Shown in pieces: positions 9,233-26,113 of a DNA stretch of 64,000 bases (positions within the stretch are counted from its first letter, which is position 1; each line of letters begins with the position of its first letter). Below the pieces are notes generated by a model. That model had not been told where the DNA came from. It was given only the letters and a program-made list of their open reading frames with translations, and searched no databases. A program made the translations under genes and the position numbers. Origin of the DNA: Sulfurisphaera ohwakuensis (GTDB lineage: Archaea; Thermoproteota; Thermoprotei_A; Sulfolobales; Sulfolobaceae); NCBI RefSeq assembly GCF_009729055.1, contig NZ_CP045484.1, positions 620,001 to 684,000 on the forward strand. The letters are read 5' to 3'.

Positions 9233-10984
9233 TTAAGACTTCAGATATTTATCAAACCACCCCAATTTTCTCTTTAACCTATCTATCATATTCTTCGGAT
9301 TCCCTTTTCTAGCGTGTTCATGACCATCACCTTGATATCTGACAAGCTCAGTAGGAATATTATTCATTTTTAGTGCAATAAAGAACTGTTCAACTTGCTC
9401 AATAGGGCATCTATAATCAACCTCACCGTGGATTAGCATCGTAGGGGTCTTTACATTTTTTACATAATAGATAGGTGACATCTTCATTAATTTCTCTATT
9501 CCATCTTTACTCCATGGGTCATCAATACCCGCTTCAATTGCGTTAAACCAAAAACCTATATCACTAGTACCGCACATACTTACTAGATTTGATATACTTC
9601 TTTCGCTAATTGCTGCCGAGAAAATATCAGTTTGAGTAATTATCCAATTAGTCATGTATCCACCATACGAACCTCCAGTAACGCCAAATTTACCAGTCAA
9701 ATTGAACTTCTTTTTAACCTCATTAACAAAGTTTATCAGCTCTTTCATATCCCTTCCGCCCCAATCACCAACACAAGCCTTAGCAAACTCTTCTCCATAT
9801 CCTTGACTACCACTGGGGTTAGCATAAATTATATTATAACCATTACTGGCAAAGAACTGGAATTCTATGAAATATGCATAACCATAAGCCATATGAGGAC
9901 CTCCATGAATAAAGAGAATTGTTGGATTAGAGGGATTTGTAATTAATGCCCAACCCTCGATCTCACCCTTTACTTCAATAGGCGATAATCCCTTTACATT
10001 TGGATTAGGATCATACGCCTCACCGTTGTAGAATAGAATTACGGGCTTTTCTGGTGTTGAATAAAAATAAGCCAATTTACCATCCTTGAAGTCAAAGCCT
10101 CTAACAGCCAATTTTCCTTCTGTTAGTTTGGTAACCTTATCGGAGACAGAGTAAATGTGACTTTCTCCACCTACTTGGCCTAATGTTATTACTTGATCAC
10201 CTTCATACACAATTTTCTCTTTAACGCCATCAAACAGATCACTTAAAACTGTATTACCACATGTATTTCCGCATAGGAAACTTTTCCCTTCTTCTGGAAA
10301 AATTATTTCTCTGACAGCCCATGGAGTTTTGCCCTTTCTATGACCCAAATAAGCTATCTTTCCGTCTCTATTCATAGCTATTGCAGTAATATTACCTTCT
10401 CCTTGTGTAATCCGCGTTAGCTCTCCAGTATTAATATCAACTTCATAAATGTCAGCTAAGCCATAATCATCATTCTCTCTTGTTGCTGAAATAATAATCC
10501 TATTACCGTTTGTTGCAATATCAGTAACATCAAAATTTCCAGAAATAATTTTTCTCAATTCTTTGTTGTATAGGAAGAGGGATTGTCTAGTCCAGAATAA
10601 ACCTTTACCATCAAATCTGTACTTAAGCTTATCACTCACGAAATACGTACTGGGTTTTACTTTCTCTTCTCCAATAATTAAAATTCCATTCTTATGGAAG
10701 ACATACTTGTGAATTTTACCTAAAGAGAGTATTTCTTCCGGTTCTCCATAAGGTCTCTGTCTTATTAATTTAGCTTCTCTTCTACTCCCCTTTACGTAAT
10801 ACAAAAAGCCATCATAATAATAGGGCGAAGATTCATTCCCGCCAAAAGTTATTCTTTGTTTATTTAAGTAGATAGCTGATTTGTATTTCTCGTTCTCAAT
10901 CCACGTTTCTACGTGAAATAAACCAATCTCGTTCAATTTAACATCTGATATTAACCTTATCGAATATGCCTCTTCCGGCGTCAT
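9233..10984 (-). CDS. S9-family acylaminoacyl-peptidase-like protease
   Basis: A beta-propeller N-terminal part (to about residue 330) precedes an alpha/beta-hydrolase domain. Catalytic residues are Ser439 in GGSYGG, Asp523 in HGEVDYRCP and His555 in GDGHEHA. The oxyanion strand is seen in FIHGGPHMAYGY. The family (prolyl oligopeptidase, subfamily S9C) removes blocked amino acids or short peptides from peptides up to about 30 residues, in the cytosol. The length of 583 is usual. The start ATG at 10984 faces the MFS gene across 30 bases, so the two are divergently transcribed. Confidence 0.9.
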   Translation of the reverse strand: MTPEEAYSIRLISDVKLNEIGLFHVETWIENEKYKSAIYLNKQRITFGGNESSPYYYDGFLYYVKGSRREAKLIRQRPYGEPEEILSLGKIHKYVFHKNGILIIGEEKVKPSTYFVSDKLKYRFDGKGLFWTRQSLFLYNKELRKIISGNFDVTDIATNGNRIIISATRENDDYGLADIYEVDINTGELTRITQGEGNITAIAMNRDGKIAYLGHRKGKTPWAVREIIFPEEGKSFLCGNTCGNTVLSDLFDGVKEKIVYEGDQVITLGQVGGESHIYSVSDKVTKLTEGKLAVRGFDFKDGKLAYFYSTPEKPVILFYNGEAYDPNPNVKGLSPIEVKGEIEGWALITNPSNPTILFIHGGPHMAYGYAYFIEFQFFASNGYNIIYANPSGSQGYGEEFAKACVGDWGGRDMKELINFVNEVKKKFNLTGKFGVTGGSYGGYMTNWIITQTDIFSAAISERSISNLVSMCGTSDIGFWFNAIEAGIDDPWSKDGIEKLMKMSPIYYVKNVKTPTMLIHGEVDYRCPIEQVEQFFIALKMNNIPTELVRYQGDGHEHARKGNPKNMIDRLKRKLGWFDKYLKS

Positions 10985-11014
10985 GCTTTTATATAGTTTT
11001 TCGTTTTTTTAAAT

Positions 11015-12130
11015 ATGACTATTAAAAGGAGAAGCGAAGTATTAAAAATTTCATTTTCAGCTTTCTTTGCAGATTTAGGATATCAAGCTGCTGTAGCATC
11101 TTTTCCTATAATCTTCGTCTTCTACTTTCACGCCCCAATTTTCCTATACGGTATTGCTGAAGCCCTGAATTACGGTGGTGGAAGTCTAATGTCGATTCTT
11201 GGAGGTTATTTGGCAGATAAATACGGAAGGAAACTTATAGCTGTGATTGGAAATGCGTTAATTATTATTCTGTCTTTTACGGGTCTAGCAGTGAATTACA
11301 TAGAAGCTTTATTTTTATTTATGTTTGGTTGGTGGTTTAGGAATTTTAGAACTCCAGCCAGAAGGGCTATGCTTTCTGAAGTTACTGAAGAGAGCGAAAG
11401 AAAAGAGGCTTATGGTATTCTACATGCTTTAGATATTGCTGGAGCAACGTTGGCTGTCGCATACTTAACTATTGCATTATACTTCGGGGTTAAAGCTACA
11501 GAGATTCTGATTTTTACCTCAATTCCCCTAATAATTTCTACGTTATTTTTAGTGTTTGTTAAAGCTGGCGGAAAAGGTATTCCGAAAAAGCCTGGTAAAG
11601 TTGCTTTAACTATTGTAATTTCTACAATGTTCTTTGCTTTTACTCAATATAGTTTTGGATTTCCGATAATCACAACAGAAGAATTTACAAGAAGGTTTTA
11701 CCTCGCAACATTAACGTACGGAGTATTCCTTGCTTCATCTTCTTTATTCGGGTACGTATTTGGAAAAATAAAGCTTGAAGAAGTTAAAGGATTAGCATTC
11801 TTAGGATATTTATTAGCTGGGCTTACCTCATTTGGATTTGCTTTTCTCTCTCCTCTAGGAGTTATATCAATATATCCATTATCTGTAATTATGGGAATTG
11901 CAGTAGCATCCACAGAAACCTTTGAACCAACAATAATTTCGAAATTATCTAGAAGCGAAACTGGTACAGCAATGGGTGCCTTATCCTTTGGAAGAAGTAT
12001 TGGAGTCTTGATAGGGAATACTATAATGGGATTCCTTTATCAGTACAGTTACTCATATTCTTATATTTTTGCTGGAATAATGGGTATTATAGCATTCTTA
12101 ATAGTTTTTACAGTCCTACTCAGAGGATGA
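11015..12130 (+). CDS. Major facilitator superfamily transporter
   Basis: A 371-residue protein with about 11-12 hydrophobic segments. The MFS signature between helices 2 and 3 is GGYLADKYGRKLIAVIGN. The short length suggests one reduced terminal helix. The substrate cannot be told. It is transcribed divergently from the S9 peptidase and stands alone. Peptide or amino-acid export is possible from the neighbour but is not shown by sequence. Confidence 0.85.
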   Translation: MTIKRRSEVLKISFSAFFADLGYQAAVASFPIIFVFYFHAPIFLYGIAEALNYGGGSLMSILGGYLADKYGRKLIAVIGNALIIILSFTGLAVNYIEALFLFMFGWWFRNFRTPARRAMLSEVTEESERKEAYGILHALDIAGATLAVAYLTIALYFGVKATEILIFTSIPLIISTLFLVFVKAGGKGIPKKPGKVALTIVISTMFFAFTQYSFGFPIITTEEFTRRFYLATLTYGVFLASSSLFGYVFGKIKLEEVKGLAFLGYLLAGLTSFGFAFLSPLGVISIYPLSVIMGIAVASTETFEPTIISKLSRSETGTAMGALSFGRSIGVLIGNTIMGFLYQYSYSYSYIFAGIMGIIAFLIVFTVLLRG

Positions 12131-18264: not shown

Positions 18265-18475
18265 TATATATCGGTGGATTTTTTCCACAATGTTCAGTCC
18301 GACGGTAGGGGTTTGTCACGCCCTCATTCGAAGACTTTGCTTCAGTTAAGGGGTCGACCATGTTTCGCCAGCCAAGGAGTATTATTCTCCCCGGCTAATA
18401 TAACCTATATAGGTTTCTTGGGTATGCCTTCAACTTGGTTTTTCTAGTTTTAGGCGTTGAGTTTTTTGTATTTTT
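18265..18475 (-). other. Non-coding left end of IS110 remnant (possible bridge-RNA region)
   Basis: About 210 bases with no convincing gene lie just upstream of the IS110 transposase start, up to the ISC1217-like element. The stretch is richer in G+C than flanking DNA and contains short self-complementary pieces. In IS110-type elements the bridge RNA is encoded in the non-coding end upstream of the recombinase. Assignment here rests on position only; no RNA fold was computed. Confidence 0.35.
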
Positions 18476-18492
18476 AGCAGTTATTCTACTTT
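18476..18492 (+). repeat. Left terminal inverted repeat of ISC1217-like element
   Basis: AGCAGTTATTCTACTTT, an exact inverted match to 19652-19668. Its outer bases TAGCA(G)TT are also the outer bases of the 173-bp repeats at 26.2 and 63.0 kb. Confidence 0.93.
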
Positions 18493-18562
18493 TCCTTGGT
18501 AATACAAAACTTTCAGTACTACCGATAAAGTTTTTAATTTACCACATAATTGATTAAAAAGT

Positions 18563-19612
18563 ATGAAGAACGAGAAGGAACTAGAAGTTGCAAGGAGCGA
18601 ATTCATCAAGGCATTCAACCACCTAGTTGGAATACTGAGAATGAAGGGACTCAAAAGAAAAGTAGCACTAGGCCTAACACTCATGACACTAATAGGAGGA
18701 AGAGCAAGCATAAGAAACACAGCAATAACATTCGGACTAAACTACACAAACCTATTAGAAGCACTAGAACGCCTTGAAGAAGCATGGAAACACTACCTTG
18801 ATACACTAAGCAAAACAATAGTAGGACCCGTAGTGATTATAATAGACGACACATTCGACCACAAACCATACTCAAGAATAGAAGAAATAGCAAGCAGATA
18901 CGGGAACTACATCTTCTACTGCTCCACACACAAGAAATTCGAACCGGGAATACAAGTCCTCACAATAGCACTACACGACTTGGCCACGGGAAAAAACTAC
19001 TTGGTCGGCGCTTTCCCATACGCAACAAGAAAAATGTGGGAAAGCGGGATGGTGAGCGAATTCAAGACAAAGATAGAGATGGCTGCAGAAATAATTGAGA
19101 TACTCAAGAGTAAATTCACCATAGCTAGGGTTGTGTTTGATTCTTGGTATTGGTCTGAGAAGTTGGTGAGGGGTTGTGTTGTTTCTGAGTTGAGGTCTAA
19201 TAGGAGGCTCTTAAGGGTTAGGTGTTTGGAGGGAGGGGGGACGTTGGATGTGGAGGGGCACATCCACGTCCGAGATCTTCCTCCAAGCTCTTACTTGGCT
19301 GACCTAACCCTTGAGAGTCGAGTTATTACTATAAAGTTGTTAGTACTGGAATATAAAGATAATAGGCTTAGCTTGTACTCCACTGATCTTAGCTTGAGTG
19401 ATGAGGAGATAGAGGCTACTTGGAGGATTAGGTGGGAGATAGAGAAGTTTCACAAGGATATTAAGGCTCTTGGTATGCAAGATTCCTCTTTCTTAAAGAG
19501 GAAGAGGTTTCAAGGTTACTTGCTTCTCTTCGTGATGGTTGTTAACACGGTTAGAGATTTGATTAGCTCCCTTAACTTGAGGAGTTTCTCAGGTTCGTTG
19601 AAATTCGTTTAG
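18563..19612 (+). CDS. ISC1217-like DDE transposase
   Basis: A 349-residue transposase. VVIIIDDTFDHKPYSR holds the first catalytic Asp, ARVVFDSWYWSEKLV the second, and WRIRWEIEKFHKDIKALG gives the Y/W-(2)-R-(3)-E-(6)-K like signature with the catalytic Glu. That order fits the archaeal ISC1217 (DDE_Tnp_2) group. The N-terminal third (VALGLTLMTLIGGRASIRNT) would be the DNA-binding part. No stops or frameshifts interrupt it, so the element should be active. Codon use changes from A-rich to G-rich past the middle, near 19140. Confidence 0.88.
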   Translation: MKNEKELEVARSEFIKAFNHLVGILRMKGLKRKVALGLTLMTLIGGRASIRNTAITFGLNYTNLLEALERLEEAWKHYLDTLSKTIVGPVVIIIDDTFDHKPYSRIEEIASRYGNYIFYCSTHKKFEPGIQVLTIALHDLATGKNYLVGAFPYATRKMWESGMVSEFKTKIEMAAEIIEILKSKFTIARVVFDSWYWSEKLVRGCVVSELRSNRRLLRVRCLEGGGTLDVEGHIHVRDLPPSSYLADLTLESRVITIKLLVLEYKDNRLSLYSTDLSLSDEEIEATWRIRWEIEKFHKDIKALGMQDSSFLKRKRFQGYLLLFVMVVNTVRDLISSLNLRSFSGSLKFV

Positions 19613-19644
19613 GTGATGCTCTAGGTTTGATGAAAACTTTTAAG

Positions 19645-20154
19645 TTACGTTAAAGTAGAATAACTGCTATTATTATCTTTATAAGAAGTAGCCTCTGTAA
19701 ATGTTAGGACTACTTCATCTGAATAGTCCTTAAAAAAGGACAGCTTTTTAAGTTGCTCTTTCGAAAAGAACTTGTAACTTGTAGGGAGAATATTAACTCT
19801 CTCTTTCAGTTCTTCGACTTTTCCGAAAAGCGATGTATCGTCATCAAAGAAGGTTAATGAACCATAGAATCTTTCTAAAAACTCTCCAATAGCACCCATA
19901 AGGCTTTCTTCTCTTGTTTCTCCCTTACCGCCCGCAGGGACAAGATTTTGCAAATATTTTAAAAGGGGTATAAATTCTGGGGGAAATGCGAGAAATTTAG
20001 GTTTAATGTATTTTATTGCTAAAAATGATTCGAGTAAATCATAGTTTACATAGTTTAACAGCTTAGTTATCACTACATTATCATACTTTTCTATATCGTA
20101 GCCAAAAGCAGATCCTAGAAATTCATTGATTATAACTTCTTGCATTTTAGGCAC
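19645..20154 (-). pseudogene. YcaO-domain cyclodehydratase, truncated by insertion sequence
   Basis: The N-terminal 160 or so residues of a YcaO protein. GGKGETREESLMGAIGEFLERF matches the YcaO ATP/Mg-binding block (GKG followed by A-x-x-E-x-x-E-R). YcaO enzymes use ATP to activate a peptide backbone amide and form azolines, thioamides or amidines. A typical member has about 400 residues; here the reading frame runs into the end of the ISC1217-like element and stops inside its inverted repeat. The second half, with the other ATP ligands and the C-terminal tail, is absent in the window. The frame is otherwise clean. It overlaps the C-protein gene by 25 nt, so the two were translated together. 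Confidence 0.78.
19652..19668 (-). repeat. Right terminal inverted repeat of ISC1217-like element
   Basis: AAAGTAGAATAACTGCT, the perfect complement of the left repeat at 18476-18492. It lies inside the last codons of the cut YcaO frame. Confidence 0.93.
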
Positions 20155-20798
20155 CCAGGGATTTTTAAGGGGGTATTTACTACAAGCTCTCCTTCCAATA
20201 GGTCTACGTAAATTAGCTTACCATCATATTTACTGCTATTTAAGAGCAGTTTAGAAAGACCTAATAATAAGAACTCCGCGAATTCATTTAATTTAAGAGA
20301 TGCTTCAACTATAACTTTTCCGTCAACTTTTATCTCTAAAATTAATCTTGAATTTTTTAACCAAAGATAAATCTCATAAATACAAGGATTGTTTTTCTTC
20401 ATCACATAAATAAAGAACCTATAAGGATCCATAGCATATGATACGAGAACCTTTTCGAACTTTAATAGCTCGTCATTGATTGAAAGTAGCGAATTTATAT
20501 TCGTTGAAATTATTAACGTATTTTCATATTTAGGTAAGTCATTAATTGACACGTAGAGGTTAACTAGGTGTTGAGCTGTCAGTATTATATTAATAGCAAA
20601 GACGTTAATTTTCTCTTCCTTTTCTGGTATTAGCATTCTAATATCCATTAACTCGTCCGAATTTATTGAGAATAGATTATTAAATTCTATTTCATTTAGC
20701 TCTATTAAACCAGAAGATTCAGCGAATACTATATATTTTTCACCATTTTTATAAATAGTGAAAAAAGGAGATATTCTCTTTTTTAATTTTTCTTTCAC
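20130..20798 (-). CDS. Putative RiPP cyclodehydratase partner (C-protein / leader-binding type)
   Basis: A 222-residue protein I could not place by overall similarity. Its tail, NTPLKIPGCLKCKKL, resembles the 'hPxCxxC' zinc-type motif that joins the ThiF-like C protein to YcaO in azole-forming (TOMM) systems. The N-terminal part (PFFTIYKNGEKYIVFAESSG, LIELNEIEFNNLFSI) resembles the winged leader-peptide-binding region of such proteins. In TOMM systems this protein holds the leader and activates YcaO. It starts with GTG 20798, five bases after a 32-codon mini-gene, and overlaps YcaO at its end. The function is inferred mainly from the YcaO neighbour and the Cys motif; the gene itself is intact. 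Confidence 0.6.
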   Translation of the reverse strand: MKEKLKKRISPFFTIYKNGEKYIVFAESSGLIELNEIEFNNLFSINSDELMDIRMLIPEKEEKINVFAINIILTAQHLVNLYVSINDLPKYENTLIISTNINSLLSINDELLKFEKVLVSYAMDPYRFFIYVMKKNNPCIYEIYLWLKNSRLILEIKVDGKVIVEASLKLNEFAEFLLLGLSKLLLNSSKYDGKLIYVDLLEGELVVNTPLKIPGCLKCKKL

Positions 20799-20803
20799 TT
20801 ACA

Positions 20804-20902
20804 TCACTTGTATCCTACAATCCAACGGAAAATCCAGCTAAAAACTGCTCTATTTTCTTTACTTATTTCCGATGCTTTCTTATTTGCATGTTCGATTCCC
20901 AT
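20804..20902 (-). CDS. Mini-gene, candidate RiPP precursor 1 (32 aa)
   Basis: ATG at 20902, stop TGA 20804-20806, then five bases to the C-protein gene. A TATA box (TTTATATA, 20932-20925) is centred 26.5 nt upstream of this ATG, exactly where a leaderless Sulfolobus transcript would begin, so the ORF looks like the first gene of the operon. Residues 7-17 are NKKASEISKEN (charged, helical, leader-like). Residues 18-32 are RAVFSWIFRWIVGYK (hydrophobic, aromatic, cationic, core-like). It has no Cys and one Ser in the core, so azoles would be few; a membrane-active peptide is possible. Residues 7-17 align without gaps with mini-gene 2 at 23506-23601. Confidence 0.6.
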   Translation of the reverse strand: MGIEHANKKASEISKENRAVFSWIFRWIVGYK

Positions 20903-20932: not shown

Positions 20933-21059
20933 TAAACAATAAAGTTAGAAAGTTTTAACTATAATTAGTACTTTAATAATTTTGCCTAGATTGGTTAAAA
21001 AAATTTAACTAGATCTAACCCTTTTTAAAACGCTCTCCTAGATAATGAGAGGAGATAAA

Positions 21060-22724
21060 ATGGAGTACAAATGGATCGTCCTCCTAAATACAACTCTTGC
21101 CCTTTTTATTGCCTCGGTAGACGGTACAATAGTGCTTATCTCTCTACCTGCAATTTTCAGAGGGATTCAAATAAACCCGGTCGAACCTTCAACATTTCAG
21201 TACTTACTGTGGTTTTTAATGGGATATGGAATTATAGGTGCATCATTCTTAGTCAATTTCGGCAGGCTTTCTGACATATACGGAAGGGTCAAACTCTACA
21301 ATTTAGGATTTGTAATATTCACAATAGGTGCTGTCCTACTAACGTTAACCCCTAACACTGGTACTATAGGGGCGCTAGAGCTAGTCATATTTAGGATTAT
21401 AGAAGCCATAGGAGCTACTTTCCTCTTCGCAAATACTACAGCTTTATTAACAGATGCCTTTCCCCCAAACGAAAGAGGAAAAGCAATGGGTATGAACCAG
21501 ATGTCCACAATAGTTGGTACAATACTGGGACTAATCTTAGGGGGGATCTTAGCTCCAATAAACTGGAGGTTAGTATTCTTTGTGAGCGTCCCGATAGGAA
21601 TTTTAGGCACAATATGGAGCTATCGAACATTAAAAGAGACGGGTCCCTTAGCTAAGGGAGAGAAAATAGACTGGGTAGGTAATATAATATTTGCTGGGGG
21701 TTTAATACTCATACTTTTGGGTATAACATACGGTCTTATGCCTTACGGAATTTCACAGACTGGTTGGAATAACCCATATGTAATAGCCTCGTTAATATCT
21801 GGAGCAGTACTCCTAGCCATATTCCCGTTCATAGAAAGGAGAGTAAAATACCCAATGTTCAACTTAGGCCTATTCAAGATAAGATCGTTTATGCTAGGAA
21901 ATTTAGCCCAATTACTCTTCGCATTTTCCTTCGGAGGACTAACCCTAGTACTTATAATACTCCTCCAAGGTATATGGTTGCCTTTACACGGAATACCATA
22001 CTCACAGACTCCTTTCTGGGCTGGGATTTACCTAATACCTATGAGCTTAGGAGCCCCTATAATGGGACCTATAGCTGGAGTATTGTCAGATAAGTACGGA
22101 CCGAGAATCTTTTCCAGCTTAGGCTTAGCGATACTGGGTGTAGGCTTCCTAGCGTTAAGCACATTGTCCTATAACTTCAATTTATGGGAATTCCTAGCGA
22201 TAACTTTCATAATGGGGATGGGTATGGGAATGTTTGTAGCCCCTAGTACTTCATCAATTATGGGTGGTGTTCCAGGTAGGGATAGAGGAGCAGCAGCAGG
22301 AATGAGGAATACTCTCTGGTCTGGTGCACAAACTGCAAGTTTCGCTATATTCTTTACTATAATAATAAGTGTACTGTCCTTAACGTTACCTAACGCACTT
22401 TATAATGCATTTATACACGCTGGTGCACCCCAATTAGCTCCTATAGCTTCTAAAATACCAGTGAGTGCTGCACTGTTTTCAGCTTTCCTCGGCTATGACC
22501 CTGTTAAGACTCTATTATCTGCATTACCTCCTCAAATAATTTCATCATTAAGCAAGTCGGTAATCGATACTATAACCAGCAGACAATGGTTCCCACAAGC
22601 TATTGCACCACCATTTATGCATGCACTCAGGGTCTCGTTCTATATCTCATCGGCCTTAGATTTCATAGCTGCAGCACTTTCGCTATTTTTAAGACGCATA
22701 GAGACCACACAAAAGTGGGCTTAA
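21060..22724 (+). CDS. DHA2-type (EmrB/QacA-like) 14-helix MFS exporter
   Basis: About 554 residues with 13-14 hydrophobic helices. ASVDGTIVLISLPAIFRGI at the N-terminus and GRLSDIYGRVKLYNLGF in loop 2-3 match the drug:proton antiporter-2 group. NWRLVFFVSVPIGILGTIW is the helix 5-6 'motif C' region, and LSDKYGPRIFSSLGL the second-half copy of loop 2-3. ATG 21060 is chosen since GGAG lies 7 nt upstream; an in-frame ATG 15 nt earlier has no SD. It diverges from the YcaO operon with the operator region between, which makes it a candidate self-protection exporter of the peptide product (inference). Confidence 0.85.
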   Translation: MEYKWIVLLNTTLALFIASVDGTIVLISLPAIFRGIQINPVEPSTFQYLLWFLMGYGIIGASFLVNFGRLSDIYGRVKLYNLGFVIFTIGAVLLTLTPNTGTIGALELVIFRIIEAIGATFLFANTTALLTDAFPPNERGKAMGMNQMSTIVGTILGLILGGILAPINWRLVFFVSVPIGILGTIWSYRTLKETGPLAKGEKIDWVGNIIFAGGLILILLGITYGLMPYGISQTGWNNPYVIASLISGAVLLAIFPFIERRVKYPMFNLGLFKIRSFMLGNLAQLLFAFSFGGLTLVLIILLQGIWLPLHGIPYSQTPFWAGIYLIPMSLGAPIMGPIAGVLSDKYGPRIFSSLGLAILGVGFLALSTLSYNFNLWEFLAITFIMGMGMGMFVAPSTSSIMGGVPGRDRGAAAGMRNTLWSGAQTASFAIFFTIIISVLSLTLPNALYNAFIHAGAPQLAPIASKIPVSAALFSAFLGYDPVKTLLSALPPQIISSLSKSVIDTITSRQWFPQAIAPPFMHALRVSFYISSALDFIAAALSLFLRRIETTQKWA

Positions 22725-22853
22725 TTAATTAAAGCCACAATAAATTTTTATGCTAAAGGGAAAAATTTTCTTCGATTGATAAAAGCCCATGATGTAGTTA
22801 AAACTTTTTAACTTTATCCACTATTAAAAATTACCTTGTAATATAGATAATTT

Positions 22854-23504
22854 ATGAAGAGCCTTTTTATCTACTTCCTCAAGCAATTAATATTAAGTGA
22901 GCCTGCCATTTATAATATGCTGTTCGGCTTTATTATTTCTTTAGTTATCTCTAGAATAACAAACCTTATTGTAAGCTTAAATGTTTCTGAAAATCTAATA
23001 CTTAGCATACTTTCAGTTGGAGTGAGTTTTATACTCCTTTATAACTTTTCTTCTCTTCCCTTCTTTATTAAGTTCGGAAGATTAAGGTTTGGATTATACT
23101 TAATATTACTTTACCTTTCTGGGGAAATAGTAGCGCTATTTTACACGCTGTTGCTTATTATCTTATACCGCTTCCTTTTTAGTAATCTTGCGACTTTTAG
23201 TATCCCATACTTTCTCATTATGACCCTTTTAGTCTTTCTATTTATAGTATCCATTTCCACGTTTTTATCGTTTATACTGACTAATGGAAGGCTGGACAGC
23301 CCTGTAATTATGACAATTTACCCTATAATAGTTGTACCAACATTTATATTCTCTTTTTACAAGAGTGAGGTAAATCCTCTTTGGATATTTGGGATGATGA
23401 GTGAAAATATTCCAATTCCTCTTACTGTGGGTATTATTTTCTTGGTATCTCCAATAATTTTCATATATTTGCTAATATTTTTGATAAAAAAGTTTCTAAG
23501 CTAG
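22854..23504 (+). CDS. ABC-2-like membrane subunit 1
   Basis: A 216-residue protein with six likely membrane helices and short loops, for example NMLFGFIISLVISRITNLIV and FLIMTLLVFLFIVSISTFLSF. The loop FSSLPFFIKFGRLRFGLYL recalls the coupling region of ABC-2 exporter permeases, and the next permease has the similar ALAYYIRFSRLKMSNYI. A TATA-like TTAAAAATT near 22824-22832 predicts a leaderless start at 22854. It precedes a second permease and an ATPase, with mini-gene 2 between them on the opposite strand. No sequence family was recognised beyond this architecture. Confidence 0.68.
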   Translation: MKSLFIYFLKQLILSEPAIYNMLFGFIISLVISRITNLIVSLNVSENLILSILSVGVSFILLYNFSSLPFFIKFGRLRFGLYLILLYLSGEIVALFYTLLLIILYRFLFSNLATFSIPYFLIMTLLVFLFIVSISTFLSFILTNGRLDSPVIMTIYPIIVVPTFIFSFYKSEVNPLWIFGMMSENIPIPLTVGIIFLVSPIIFIYLLIFLIKKFLS

Positions 23505-23505
23505 C

Positions 23506-23601
23506 TCATATTTTCTTACAGCAACCAAACCAGCAACCAAGCATTATCGGATTAATTTTGCTTAGATCTTTTGATTTTCTATTAGTACTTACTACCACCA
23601 A
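23506..23601 (-). CDS. Mini-gene, candidate Cys-rich RiPP precursor 2 (31 aa)
   Basis: A short ORF on the strand opposite the exporter genes, from TTG 23601 (or GTG 23598) to TGA 23506-23508. A GGTGAT ribosome site (23612-23607) lies five nt before the TTG, and a TATA-like element lies at about 23626-23641. From the TTG, residues 7-17 are NRKSKDLSKIN, which align position by position with NKKASEISKEN of mini-gene 1 (N7, K9, S14, K15, N17 identical; R/K8, D/E12, L/I13 similar). Residues 20-31, MLGCWFGCCKKI, hold three Cys and two Gly, the substrate type expected for a YcaO cyclodehydratase. It is too short for usual annotation. That it is made and modified is inference. Confidence 0.58.
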   Translation of the reverse strand: MVVVSTNRKSKDLSKINPIMLGCWFGCCKKI

Positions 23602-23606
23602 TTTTT

Positions 23607-23641
23607 ATCACCTTTTACTACGTTAGTAAATTATAATTAAA
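23607..23641 (-). promoter_or_regulatory. Promoter, inverted repeat and ribosome site of mini-gene 2
   Basis: On the minus strand, in order: an A/T-rich TATA region (TTTAATTATAATTTAC, 23641-23626); an inverted repeat TTACTA-CGT-TAGTAA (23615-23629 on the plus strand); and GGTGAT (23612-23607), a strong Sulfolobus-type Shine-Dalgarno site. The inverted repeat sits between TATA and start, as in mini-gene 1, though with a different sequence. Confidence 0.55.
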
Positions 23642-23710
23642 AAGAATTCATTTAGTTAATGAGTTTTAACTCTATTCATCATTTTTATTACTTTTTACGG
23701 GATTTAAATT

Positions 23711-24448
23711 ATGGAATTAGAGAAATCTATGATAAAAAGGTTTTCGTTCTCTCCAACTGCAATATCTTATTTACTCGGAATGATGTTACTGGACTCATTA
23801 GGACTTTATTTTGCACTAAATAGTATTAAAAACATAGATGCAGGAATAATATGGTACAGTGTTGCGATATTACTGTTGGTAGCTAGCTTATCAACAGGTT
23901 TTAGCATTACAGTAGTCTACCAATCCTCTGCATTAGCTTACTATATAAGATTTAGTAGACTTAAAATGTCTAACTACATCCTGAGTTTATTCATAGGTTC
24001 ACTAATCTCTGCGACTATTTACTCGGTAACTTTCGCAGCTCTCATTACACCATTAATAACTAAACTAACACTTGACCACTTTTACGAAATTATCAGGCTT
24101 GATAATATTATACCCTTCATAGCCTCAGCTCTGATCTCAAGTCTCTTCATCCTATCCTTAACCTTTACAATCATTGCAACATTACTAGTCAAGGTTGGGG
24201 CTAAAGCGTCGAACTATACTTACTACATCTTCTTTGTATTGTTAGCAATTTCAGAACTCTCGCCTTCAGCCTCATCATCACTTAACCCCTTCTACGAAGC
24301 TGAAAATATAATTTCTTACTCCCTCATCCACGATAGCATAAGTATTTACTCCATTGAAGTAGCATTACTGGCGATAGTCTTATTGTTATTAGGGAATTTG
24401 ATTTTGAAGAAGATTAAGGCACTAAGACTGGAAGAGGTAGTGTGGTAA
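23711..24448 (+). CDS. ABC-2-like membrane subunit 2
   Basis: A 245-residue protein with about six membrane helices. The loop SALAYYIRFSRLKMSNYILS matches the coupling-loop area of the first permease, and the final segment LLLLGNLILKKIKALRLEEV is typical of ABC-2 subunits. A TATA-like TTTTTATTA near 23682-23690 predicts a leaderless start at 23711. Its stop overlaps the ATPase start (TAATG), so the two are translated together. It would form the membrane channel with the subunit at 22854. Confidence 0.72.
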   Translation: MELEKSMIKRFSFSPTAISYLLGMMLLDSLGLYFALNSIKNIDAGIIWYSVAILLLVASLSTGFSITVVYQSSALAYYIRFSRLKMSNYILSLFIGSLISATIYSVTFAALITPLITKLTLDHFYEIIRLDNIIPFIASALISSLFILSLTFTIIATLLVKVGAKASNYTYYIFFVLLAISELSPSASSSLNPFYEAENIISYSLIHDSISIYSIEVALLAIVLLLLGNLILKKIKALRLEEVVW

Positions 24449-25083
24449 TGCTGGAGATTAAAGATTTATCTATCTATTTCGAGGGCTTTATAGTCCTAAA
24501 AAATATTAACTTAAAACTTGACAATCAATTGTGTGTAATACTAGGTCCTAATGGTTCCGGAAAAACTACCTTGCTAAGAGCTATCTCTGGAATAATTCCA
24601 TACGGGGGTTCGATAAAGATAAACGGTAAGGAGGTTAGGAGTGCTAAGAGGGTTTTAGAATACTCCACAAACCTTCAAGAGGTATACACTATAGGTAATT
24701 CCGCATGGGATACTGCGAAAATAATAGCGGAGATTAAAGGCGGAGATTTAAAAGAATTCACAAGCATCTTAAGCTATCTGGACGTAGATAGAAAGGTGAT
24801 ACACAAGCCTATGTATAAAATGTCTACTGGACAGAGGAGTTTAGTATCGTTAGCACTGGCGCTCTTTACGAGGCCTCAAATAGTTACTATCGACGAGCCG
24901 ATAGAGAATGTCGACGTCAATAGGAGGGATAGGGTGATATCGTTATTACGCGAAAGGGTTGATGAGGGTATAATCGTAACGCATCAGAAGGAGTTAATCA
25001 AGATGTTAAATGATAATAATAAGAAGGAAGTGATAGTTTATACGATAGTTAACGGTGAGCTTGTTGAAGGTAATAAAATGTAA
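24448..25083 (+). CDS. ABC transporter ATP-binding subunit
   Basis: Walker A is ILGPNGSGKTTLLRA, the signature loop is KMSTGQRSLVSLALAL (MSTGQ instead of LSGGQ), Walker B is PQIVTIDEP, and the switch His lies in GIIVTHQKEL. A stand-alone domain of 211 residues. ATG 24448 shares its A with the stop of the permease gene (TAATG), so that start is preferred over the upstream GTG 24442. With the two permeases it forms an exporter. Such exporters with YcaO genes usually carry the finished peptide out or give immunity (inference). Confidence 0.9.
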   Translation: MLEIKDLSIYFEGFIVLKNINLKLDNQLCVILGPNGSGKTTLLRAISGIIPYGGSIKINGKEVRSAKRVLEYSTNLQEVYTIGNSAWDTAKIIAEIKGGDLKEFTSILSYLDVDRKVIHKPMYKMSTGQRSLVSLALALFTRPQIVTIDEPIENVDVNRRDRVISLLRERVDEGIIVTHQKELIKMLNDNNKKEVIVYTIVNGELVEGNKM

Positions 25084-25154
25084 TAGAAAAGCGAGGGGAA
25101 AAAATGTATATATAGCATGCTGGGTTGGTTGTTGGTTCAGTTGTTGGACTTCGA

Positions 25155-25826
25155 GTGAAGTTAAAAAATCTTAACTATAATCTAAGTTTAAATCCATTGT
25201 TAGGGAAATTACTAAAGGGTGGAAGAATTATTAGTAAAGAAATAGATATTCAGAAATCCGTAGAAATAAGCGAGAATCTTTATCATCGTGTTATGCTTAA
25301 CGCAGCAAAGACAATATTAGATTTCATAGGGCTTGGAAGTCTTACTACTTTTTTATTAATAAGCCTTGTCTCAAACCCTATTACTTTTAACATTAGCATA
25401 CTAGTCTTTTCCACCATATACATGTTTATCTCTTGGAGGATGAGTAGGTTTGTATATCCATTTATTAAGGCATTTAACTCTCATAAATCTTCGTTAATTG
25501 TTAAGAAATTTCCCTTACTTGTTAAGCTAACCTACACGCTTTCGCTCTTAATACTTTACGTCCTATTTCTACTCTCATTTTACATTCACTTCCTATCTAA
25601 TTTACCAATTTTTCTTGTAGGTGCATACATATCTTTCATTGGGATTCAGTTAATTACTACCATAAGATTTCTAAAAGAGAACTCTATAGAATACGTTCTA
25701 GTTACATCATATATTCTTTCAGGAGTAGCTATCATAATATCTCCTTTCCATATAACAACCCTCCTAATCCCGCCATTCTTAGCCTTTTTGTACAAATTGA
25801 TAAGGAGGGCTGAGGAATGGAGCTAG
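25155..25826 (+). CDS. Membrane protein linked to a winged-helix regulator
   Basis: About 223 residues with a cytosolic N-terminal part (to about residue 55), then six likely membrane helices, for example SLLILYVLFLLSFYIHFL and LLIPPFLAFLYKLIRRAEE. I found no family match. A TATA box TATATATA at 25107-25114 would start the mRNA near 25137, so the TTG at 25125 is unlikely; GTG 25155 is the next in-frame start. The tail overlaps the regulator gene by 10 nt. A membrane protein fused by operon to a DNA-binding protein may sense or hold that regulator at the membrane. Confidence 0.6.
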   Translation: MKLKNLNYNLSLNPLLGKLLKGGRIISKEIDIQKSVEISENLYHRVMLNAAKTILDFIGLGSLTTFLLISLVSNPITFNISILVFSTIYMFISWRMSRFVYPFIKAFNSHKSSLIVKKFPLLVKLTYTLSLLILYVLFLLSFYIHFLSNLPIFLVGAYISFIGIQLITTIRFLKENSIEYVLVTSYILSGVAIIISPFHITTLLIPPFLAFLYKLIRRAEEWS

Positions 25827-26113
25827 AGAAATTAATAAAACTGCTGAAGGATAATAAGGAGTTAAATGTTGGAGTTAGGTTAGGGATTCTGCTAGGTCTT
25901 TATTATACTAGGTCTGCATGGTTTAAGGAATTGTTGGAAGCTACTGGGTTAAATAAGGCAGAACTATATCAGCACCTTAAGATCTTGCATAAGAGTGGAT
26001 ACGTGGAGATTAAATATATCCCTACAGTTGAAGGTAAGAGGTTGAAGGTTTTTATAACTAAAAAAGGGGATGAAGTAGTAAGGCAAGTCGTTGAACTGTT
26101 AAGGAAGAAGTAA
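25817..26113 (+). CDS. Winged-helix transcriptional regulator
   Basis: A 98-residue protein. NVGVRLGILLGLYYTRSAWF is helix 1, KELLEATGLNKAELYQHLKILHKSGYVEIK the helix-turn-helix with recognition helix, and GKRLKVFITKKGDEVVRQVV the wing and dimer helix. This is the ArsR/MarR-like HTH_34 shape common in Sulfolobus. It starts within the end of the membrane-protein gene after GAGG. It may bind the inverted repeats in front of the mini-genes; this is inference from position. Confidence 0.82.
   Translation: MELEKLIKLLKDNKELNVGVRLGILLGLYYTRSAWFKELLEATGLNKAELYQHLKILHKSGYVEIKYIPTVEGKRLKVFITKKGDEVVRQVVELLRKK

Follow-up and report, generated by a model that had tools for sequence, protein, structure and literature searches.

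The minus-strand reading frame at positions 23506-23601 of the window, by which we mean the whole 64,000-nt stretch of Sulfurisphaera ohwakuensis DNA analysed here, is probably (at about 75%, judging from sequence) A3, the third of several precursor genes in a Sulfolobaceae cluster for azole RiPPs that is no longer intact in this strain. The frame is very probably more than a product of chance, and by its gene content the window holds what we read as a partly dismantled azole-peptide cluster. The original prediction had proposed a RiPP precursor at this place, and several lines support this proposal: two other genomes hold relatives of the core, a positional counterpart lies beside the same permease gene and shares the operator-like palindrome, and the clusters of the relatives have an intact SagD-type YcaO and SagB-type dehydrogenase. 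The comparisons below involve the strain's own genome (G000) and the loci L010 (genome G011), L011 (G017, which we take to be S. acidocaldarius DSM 639), L070 (G002, presumably S. tokodaii-like, strain 7) and L051 (G029).

The A3 reading frame and its surroundings

Read on the minus strand from 23601 to 23506, A3 consists of a TTG start, LVVVSTNRKSKDLSKINPIMLGCWFGCCKKI and a TGA stop, with 31 codons, and would give the peptide (M/L)VVVSTNRKSKDLSKINPIMLGCWFGCCKKI, in which the core is GCWFGCC. The TTG at 23601, the Shine-Dalgarno-like GGTGAT five nt 5' of it (23607-23612, minus strand) and the GCWFGCC end all lie where they had been predicted. GGTGA occurs at the ribosome-site position in 4 of the 522 small ORFs of the window (<1%), and a TTG start after a GGTGA-type site is common to A3 and to a second precursor gene, A2. 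The predicted TATA region corresponds to an A/T-rich, TATA-like stretch, TTTTTAATTATAA, 5' of A3. The inverted repeat that had been placed between this region and the ORF is also present, but further upstream, beyond the TATA-like stretch (about 23654-23671). It is an operator-like palindrome, AGTTAATGAGTTTTAACT, which A3 shares with the divergent permease 2 gene and which aligns with L010 and L070; it stands 53 nt from the A3 start here, against 48 nt in L011, and the A/T-rich, TATA-like stretch lies in between.

A3 occupies the 206-nt gap between two membrane protein genes, presumed ABC permease 1 (22854-23504, plus strand) and presumed ABC permease 2 (23711-24448, plus strand). Described earlier as hidden opposite the ABC exporter, the frame is on the opposite strand, but it is intergenic and not inside the exporter gene. 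It stands tail to tail with permease 1, its stop codon falling just beyond that of the permease, and it has its upstream region in common with permease 2. We rejected the idea that A3 merely continues the permease gene, since it is on the opposite strand and does not overlap that gene in the window.

Three proposed precursor types with a Cys-Trp core

A scan of small frames for Cys-Trp motifs yielded three precursor types, A1, A2 and A3, all of them short, with a Cys-rich core and near the enzyme genes, and the repeated core (G/A)CWxGC(W/C) is common to small ORFs of the two other Sulfolobaceae clusters. The classical precursor of the cluster is A1 (MGIEHANKKASEISKENRAVFSWIFRWIVGYK; 20804-20902, minus strand) and not A3: A1 is found directly 5' of the C gene, with counterparts in L010 (MQIEQTYNKAIEIHSDSEVVFSWVGCWIGCWFAGSR; 11590-11700, plus strand) and L011 (MRAYYTVRRANLIYQAYSEGRVLFSWFGCWFGCWFGGGGRVSG; 10210-10338, minus strand). 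Both core cysteines are gone from the A1 of the window, one through a substitution and the other through a 12-nt loss. A2 (LKVIKCNRKARGKNVYIACWVGCWFSCWTSSEVKKS; 25064-25174, plus strand), which has kept its core intact, lies 3' of the ABC ATPase gene and is readable from a TTG codon in the window, L010 and L011; the L010 peptide is that of the window with three changes, and the L011 peptide is LRVLKSNKKTKRSSERIEIACWAGCWFSCWTSHVRDDCETK. Additional A2-like sequences were observed elsewhere. A degenerate frame (LLKYNKKAKESLGRIEIAYWACCWSRCWSKSEVNDFLPQSE) at 2732-2875 of L011 has a tRNA-like sequence and an integrase-like gene nearby, the A2 copy of G029 has lost its leader, and both L051 (7607-9927, in G029) and L011 (12618-14906) carry an MFS gene and a fragment of a SPASM-domain protein near an A2 peptide.

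The positional counterpart of A3 in L011, MKVEIVHRKGILTKQVNSLACWFGCWCCCGIKRPDSNM (10460-10576, plus strand), overlaps the 3' end of permease 1 (10514-11173, minus strand) on the other strand. The A3 and permease 1 genes are convergent in the window and in L011, despite the inversion of the pair relative to permease 2. This counterpart has a longer core than A3; it is known from L011 only and is too divergent for a substitution test. No A3 was found in L010, where a 60-nt gap at the corresponding place leaves no room for it, nor in the S. tokodaii-like relic of the cluster.

A profile built from five outside peptides only, all from other genomes, was run against the 522 small ORFs of the window and ranked A2 (E 1.4e-16), A1 (E 0.0021) and A3 (E 0.0061) first, while the fourth-ranked ORF had an E of 1.2, about 200 times worse than A3. 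The A3 score (E 0.006) is weak and comes mostly from the core. A leader-only profile did not pick A3 among the small ORFs of the window, and the case for A3 therefore rests on its core, its place and its promoter. For the core (G/A)CWxGC(W/C), the corresponding DNA pattern has two matches in the strain's own 2.80-Mb genome, both inside the cluster and within 1.6 kb. Across 31 Sulfolobaceae genomes there are nine matches, seven of which are in the three clusters; of the other two, one is the A2 relic in G029 and one has a stop codon inside the motif. This amounts to a background of about one match per 73 Mb in the family, or about 1e-4 for the 6.5-kb cluster, and no match turned up in 20 Mb of random sequence generated from each of two Markov models of the window, one second-order and one third-order. 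Matches to the pattern in other families of the order, few of which were inspected, lie mostly in ORFs with no visible link to a YcaO cluster, and we read them as chance.

These figures bear on the idea that A3 is itself a chance ORF in the permease gap, in which the GCWFGC string is a coincidence. Such an origin would suit a frame with only 31 codons, a TTG start, a leader that the profile does not recognise and no counterpart in G011, but the low background of the core pattern, the positional counterpart in L011 and a ribosome site found at so few small ORFs make it very unlikely in our judgement.

The cluster in relatives and its decay in this strain

The C protein (20130-20798, minus strand; 222 aa), a presumed precursor-binding partner, matches no Pfam or NCBIfam family and no solved structure, and a structure model with a pLDDT of 40 was discarded. 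Clear homologues occur in two of 60 relatives searched, G011 (60% identity) and G017 (about 47-50%), both Sulfolobaceae of other genera; a search of 214 genomes of the order returned no further clear homologue, and the weak matches outside Sulfolobaceae (G087, G113 and G155, E 5e-4 to 8e-3) are borderline. Scans of genome contigs with YcaO and C-protein alignments, and one scan of viral contigs, found no relatives, and plasmids yielded only distant YcaO proteins from bacteria and haloarchaea. Behind the C gene, G011 and G017 both have an intact YcaO gene (430 and 437 aa, respectively) and a dehydrogenase gene. Both YcaO proteins exceed the TIGR03604 (SagD) cut-off of 219.25 bits (226.8 in L010, 273.8 in L011) and end in a PVPFP tail of the PxPxP type, and both B dehydrogenases exceed the TIGR03605 (SagB) cut-off of 78.4 bits (141.9 in L010, 175.2 in L011).

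What the window has of the YcaO cyclodehydratase is a 169-aa fragment (19645-20154, minus strand) that scores 40.7 bits against TIGR03604 and whose homology to the 430-aa relative stops at residue 161. It is cut by an ISC1217-type insertion sequence (about 18475-19676, plus strand, the borders being approximate; transposase 18563-19612), of which the genome holds four other near-complete copies with 95-97% identity. A short repeated element at 18300-18415, with several other genome copies at 86-88%, borders this ISC1217 copy. Searches of the strain's own genome recovered YcaO residues 4-161 of 430 only, with no intact or other YcaO and no match to a SagB-type dehydrogenase. The B dehydrogenase is dispensable in some azole-forming RiPP (TOMM/LAP) clusters. 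With YcaO cut and the dehydrogenase gone, no azoles would be formed by the known route, and a strain whose maturation enzymes are in this state is probably unable to produce the modified peptide itself.

The remaining genes of the cluster encode an EmrB/DHA2-like MFS efflux transporter (21045-22724, plus strand; 559 aa), an ABC transporter ATPase (24442-25083, plus strand; PF00005, E 2.6e-21), a hydrophobic protein to which we assign no role (25125-25826, plus strand) and a winged-helix regulator, HTH_34/ArsR-like (25817-26113, plus strand), that is 88% identical in L010. The gene of the hydrophobic protein probably begins later than listed, as the listed start overlaps A2.

The regulator is a candidate binder of the palindrome AGTTAA-N6-TTAACT, and we infer that it binds there. 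Besides the site shared by A3 and permease 2, operator-like palindromes lie 5' of permease 1 (22796-22813), 5' of the A1 and C genes (20943-20960, with one mismatch), 5' of the MFS gene (20993-21010) and over the last A2 codons and the A2 stop (25159-25176), an overlap that is seen in L010 too. Palindromes precede cluster units in all three genomes. Searched genome-wide as GTTAA-N6-TTAACT, with two-strand matches counted once, the sites inside the cluster make up 4 of 8 in the strain's own genome, 5 of 10 in G011 and 2 of 2 in G017. Because G011 has a palindrome near the A3 place without having A3, this particular site may serve only permease 2.

In clusters of this kind the C protein serves to bind the leader, YcaO to cyclise cysteines and SagB to oxidise the products to thiazoles, and transporters export them and protect the producer. 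The ORFs, the cluster, its break, the common core and the palindromes are read directly from the DNA; modification chemistry, transport, regulation and activity we infer. In an intact cluster, the C protein would bind a short leader-core peptide, the SagD-type YcaO would cyclise core cysteines preceded by Gly or Ala, and the SagB-type dehydrogenase would oxidise the cyclised cysteines to thiazoles; the MFS or ABC transporter would export the product and give self-protection, and the winged-helix regulator, acting on AGTTAA-N6-TTAACT, would control the units together. In the present genome, most of YcaO and the dehydrogenase would have gone with the ISC1217 insertion and an adjoining loss. The core cysteines of A1 are lost as well, and A3 would be a precursor gene that has been preserved while the enzymes for its maturation have not.

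Whether A3 is still more than an ancestral precursor gene that has been drifting neutrally, and has possibly been silent since the enzymes were lost, is a closer question, and we give this relic reading somewhat less than even odds; it is compatible with A3 being a third precursor gene. The truncated YcaO, the absent SagB, the loss of both A1 core cysteines, the A3 core that is shorter than in L011 and the more decayed remnant of the same cluster in G002 all favour drift. In that remnant (L070 6862-7372) the start of permease 2 is fused to a piece of the ATPase and the palindrome is kept. Against drift, A3 has kept an intact frame, start, ribosome site and promoter-like region, and A2 and the transporters are still conserved. 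Relative to G011, dN/dS is 0.07 for A2, 0.05 for the ATPase, 0.065 for the MFS transporter and 0.36 for A1. These values suggest purifying selection on A2 and the transporters, but they are rough, given the shortness of the peptides and a dS close to saturation in several genes, and they mostly reflect the time before the YcaO break. We read the cluster as having been lost stepwise, being intact in two genera, broken here and, in the S. tokodaii-like genome, down to a small remnant.

A peptide that persists in a genome with no functional YcaO or SagB, and that has a regulatory region in common with a transporter gene, could also be a real Cys/Trp-rich product that carries no azoles and is metal-binding, membrane-active, a signal or the inducer of the regulator. 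We consider this unlikely, as the core is the same as that of A1, which in L010 and L011 directly precedes the C and YcaO genes; an azole precursor remains our preferred reading of A3.

Relation to known azole-peptide systems

A thermoacidophisin class of TOMM clusters has been described in S. acidocaldarius and S. islandicus, for which the main text reports discrete C, D and B proteins, a C protein unlike others, ABC transporters, a regulator and Tyr/Gly-rich precursors (Cox et al., 2015; PMC4603692). As far as that text describes the class, the present cluster probably belongs to it: L010 and L011 have a C protein of a separate group, discrete D and B proteins, an ABC transporter and a regulator, and the L011 A1 is Tyr/Gly-rich, like the precursors of the published class. 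The window differs in having a truncated YcaO and no B protein, and the genes A2 and A3, with their CWxGCW cores, differ from the Tyr/Gly-rich precursors, which are the only ones named in the text of PMC4603692. We found no description of A2 or A3 in the literature searched, which included the main text of PMC4603692, and literature searches with presumed locus tags for the cluster in S. acidocaldarius returned nothing.

The YcaO and dehydrogenase of L010 and L011, which pass TIGR03604 and TIGR03605, also resemble those of streptolysin S and other SagBCD-type systems, but here the C protein has no recognisable family, the precursors are much shorter, their cores alternate Cys and Trp, and the host is an archaeon. 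Sulfolobicins, the antimicrobial products of Sulfolobus, are proteins encoded by other genes and are not known to involve YcaO. The literature searched yielded predictions of azole peptides from thermoacidophilic archaea and no report of a characterised one.

We tentatively suggest, while regarding it as rather doubtful at present, that the archaeal cluster, controlled by a single palindrome-binding regulator, makes three distinct Cys-Trp azole peptides whose genes are scattered, and that this strain, which keeps transporters, regulator and precursors without the enzymes, is an immune non-producer, or 'cheater', in hot-spring communities. The two further precursor types and the cluster-specific operator-like site provide concrete targets, and the peptides lend themselves to in vitro assays in which the two relatives supply the intact enzymes. 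With the cluster lost stepwise, retained immunity without production becomes a testable question.
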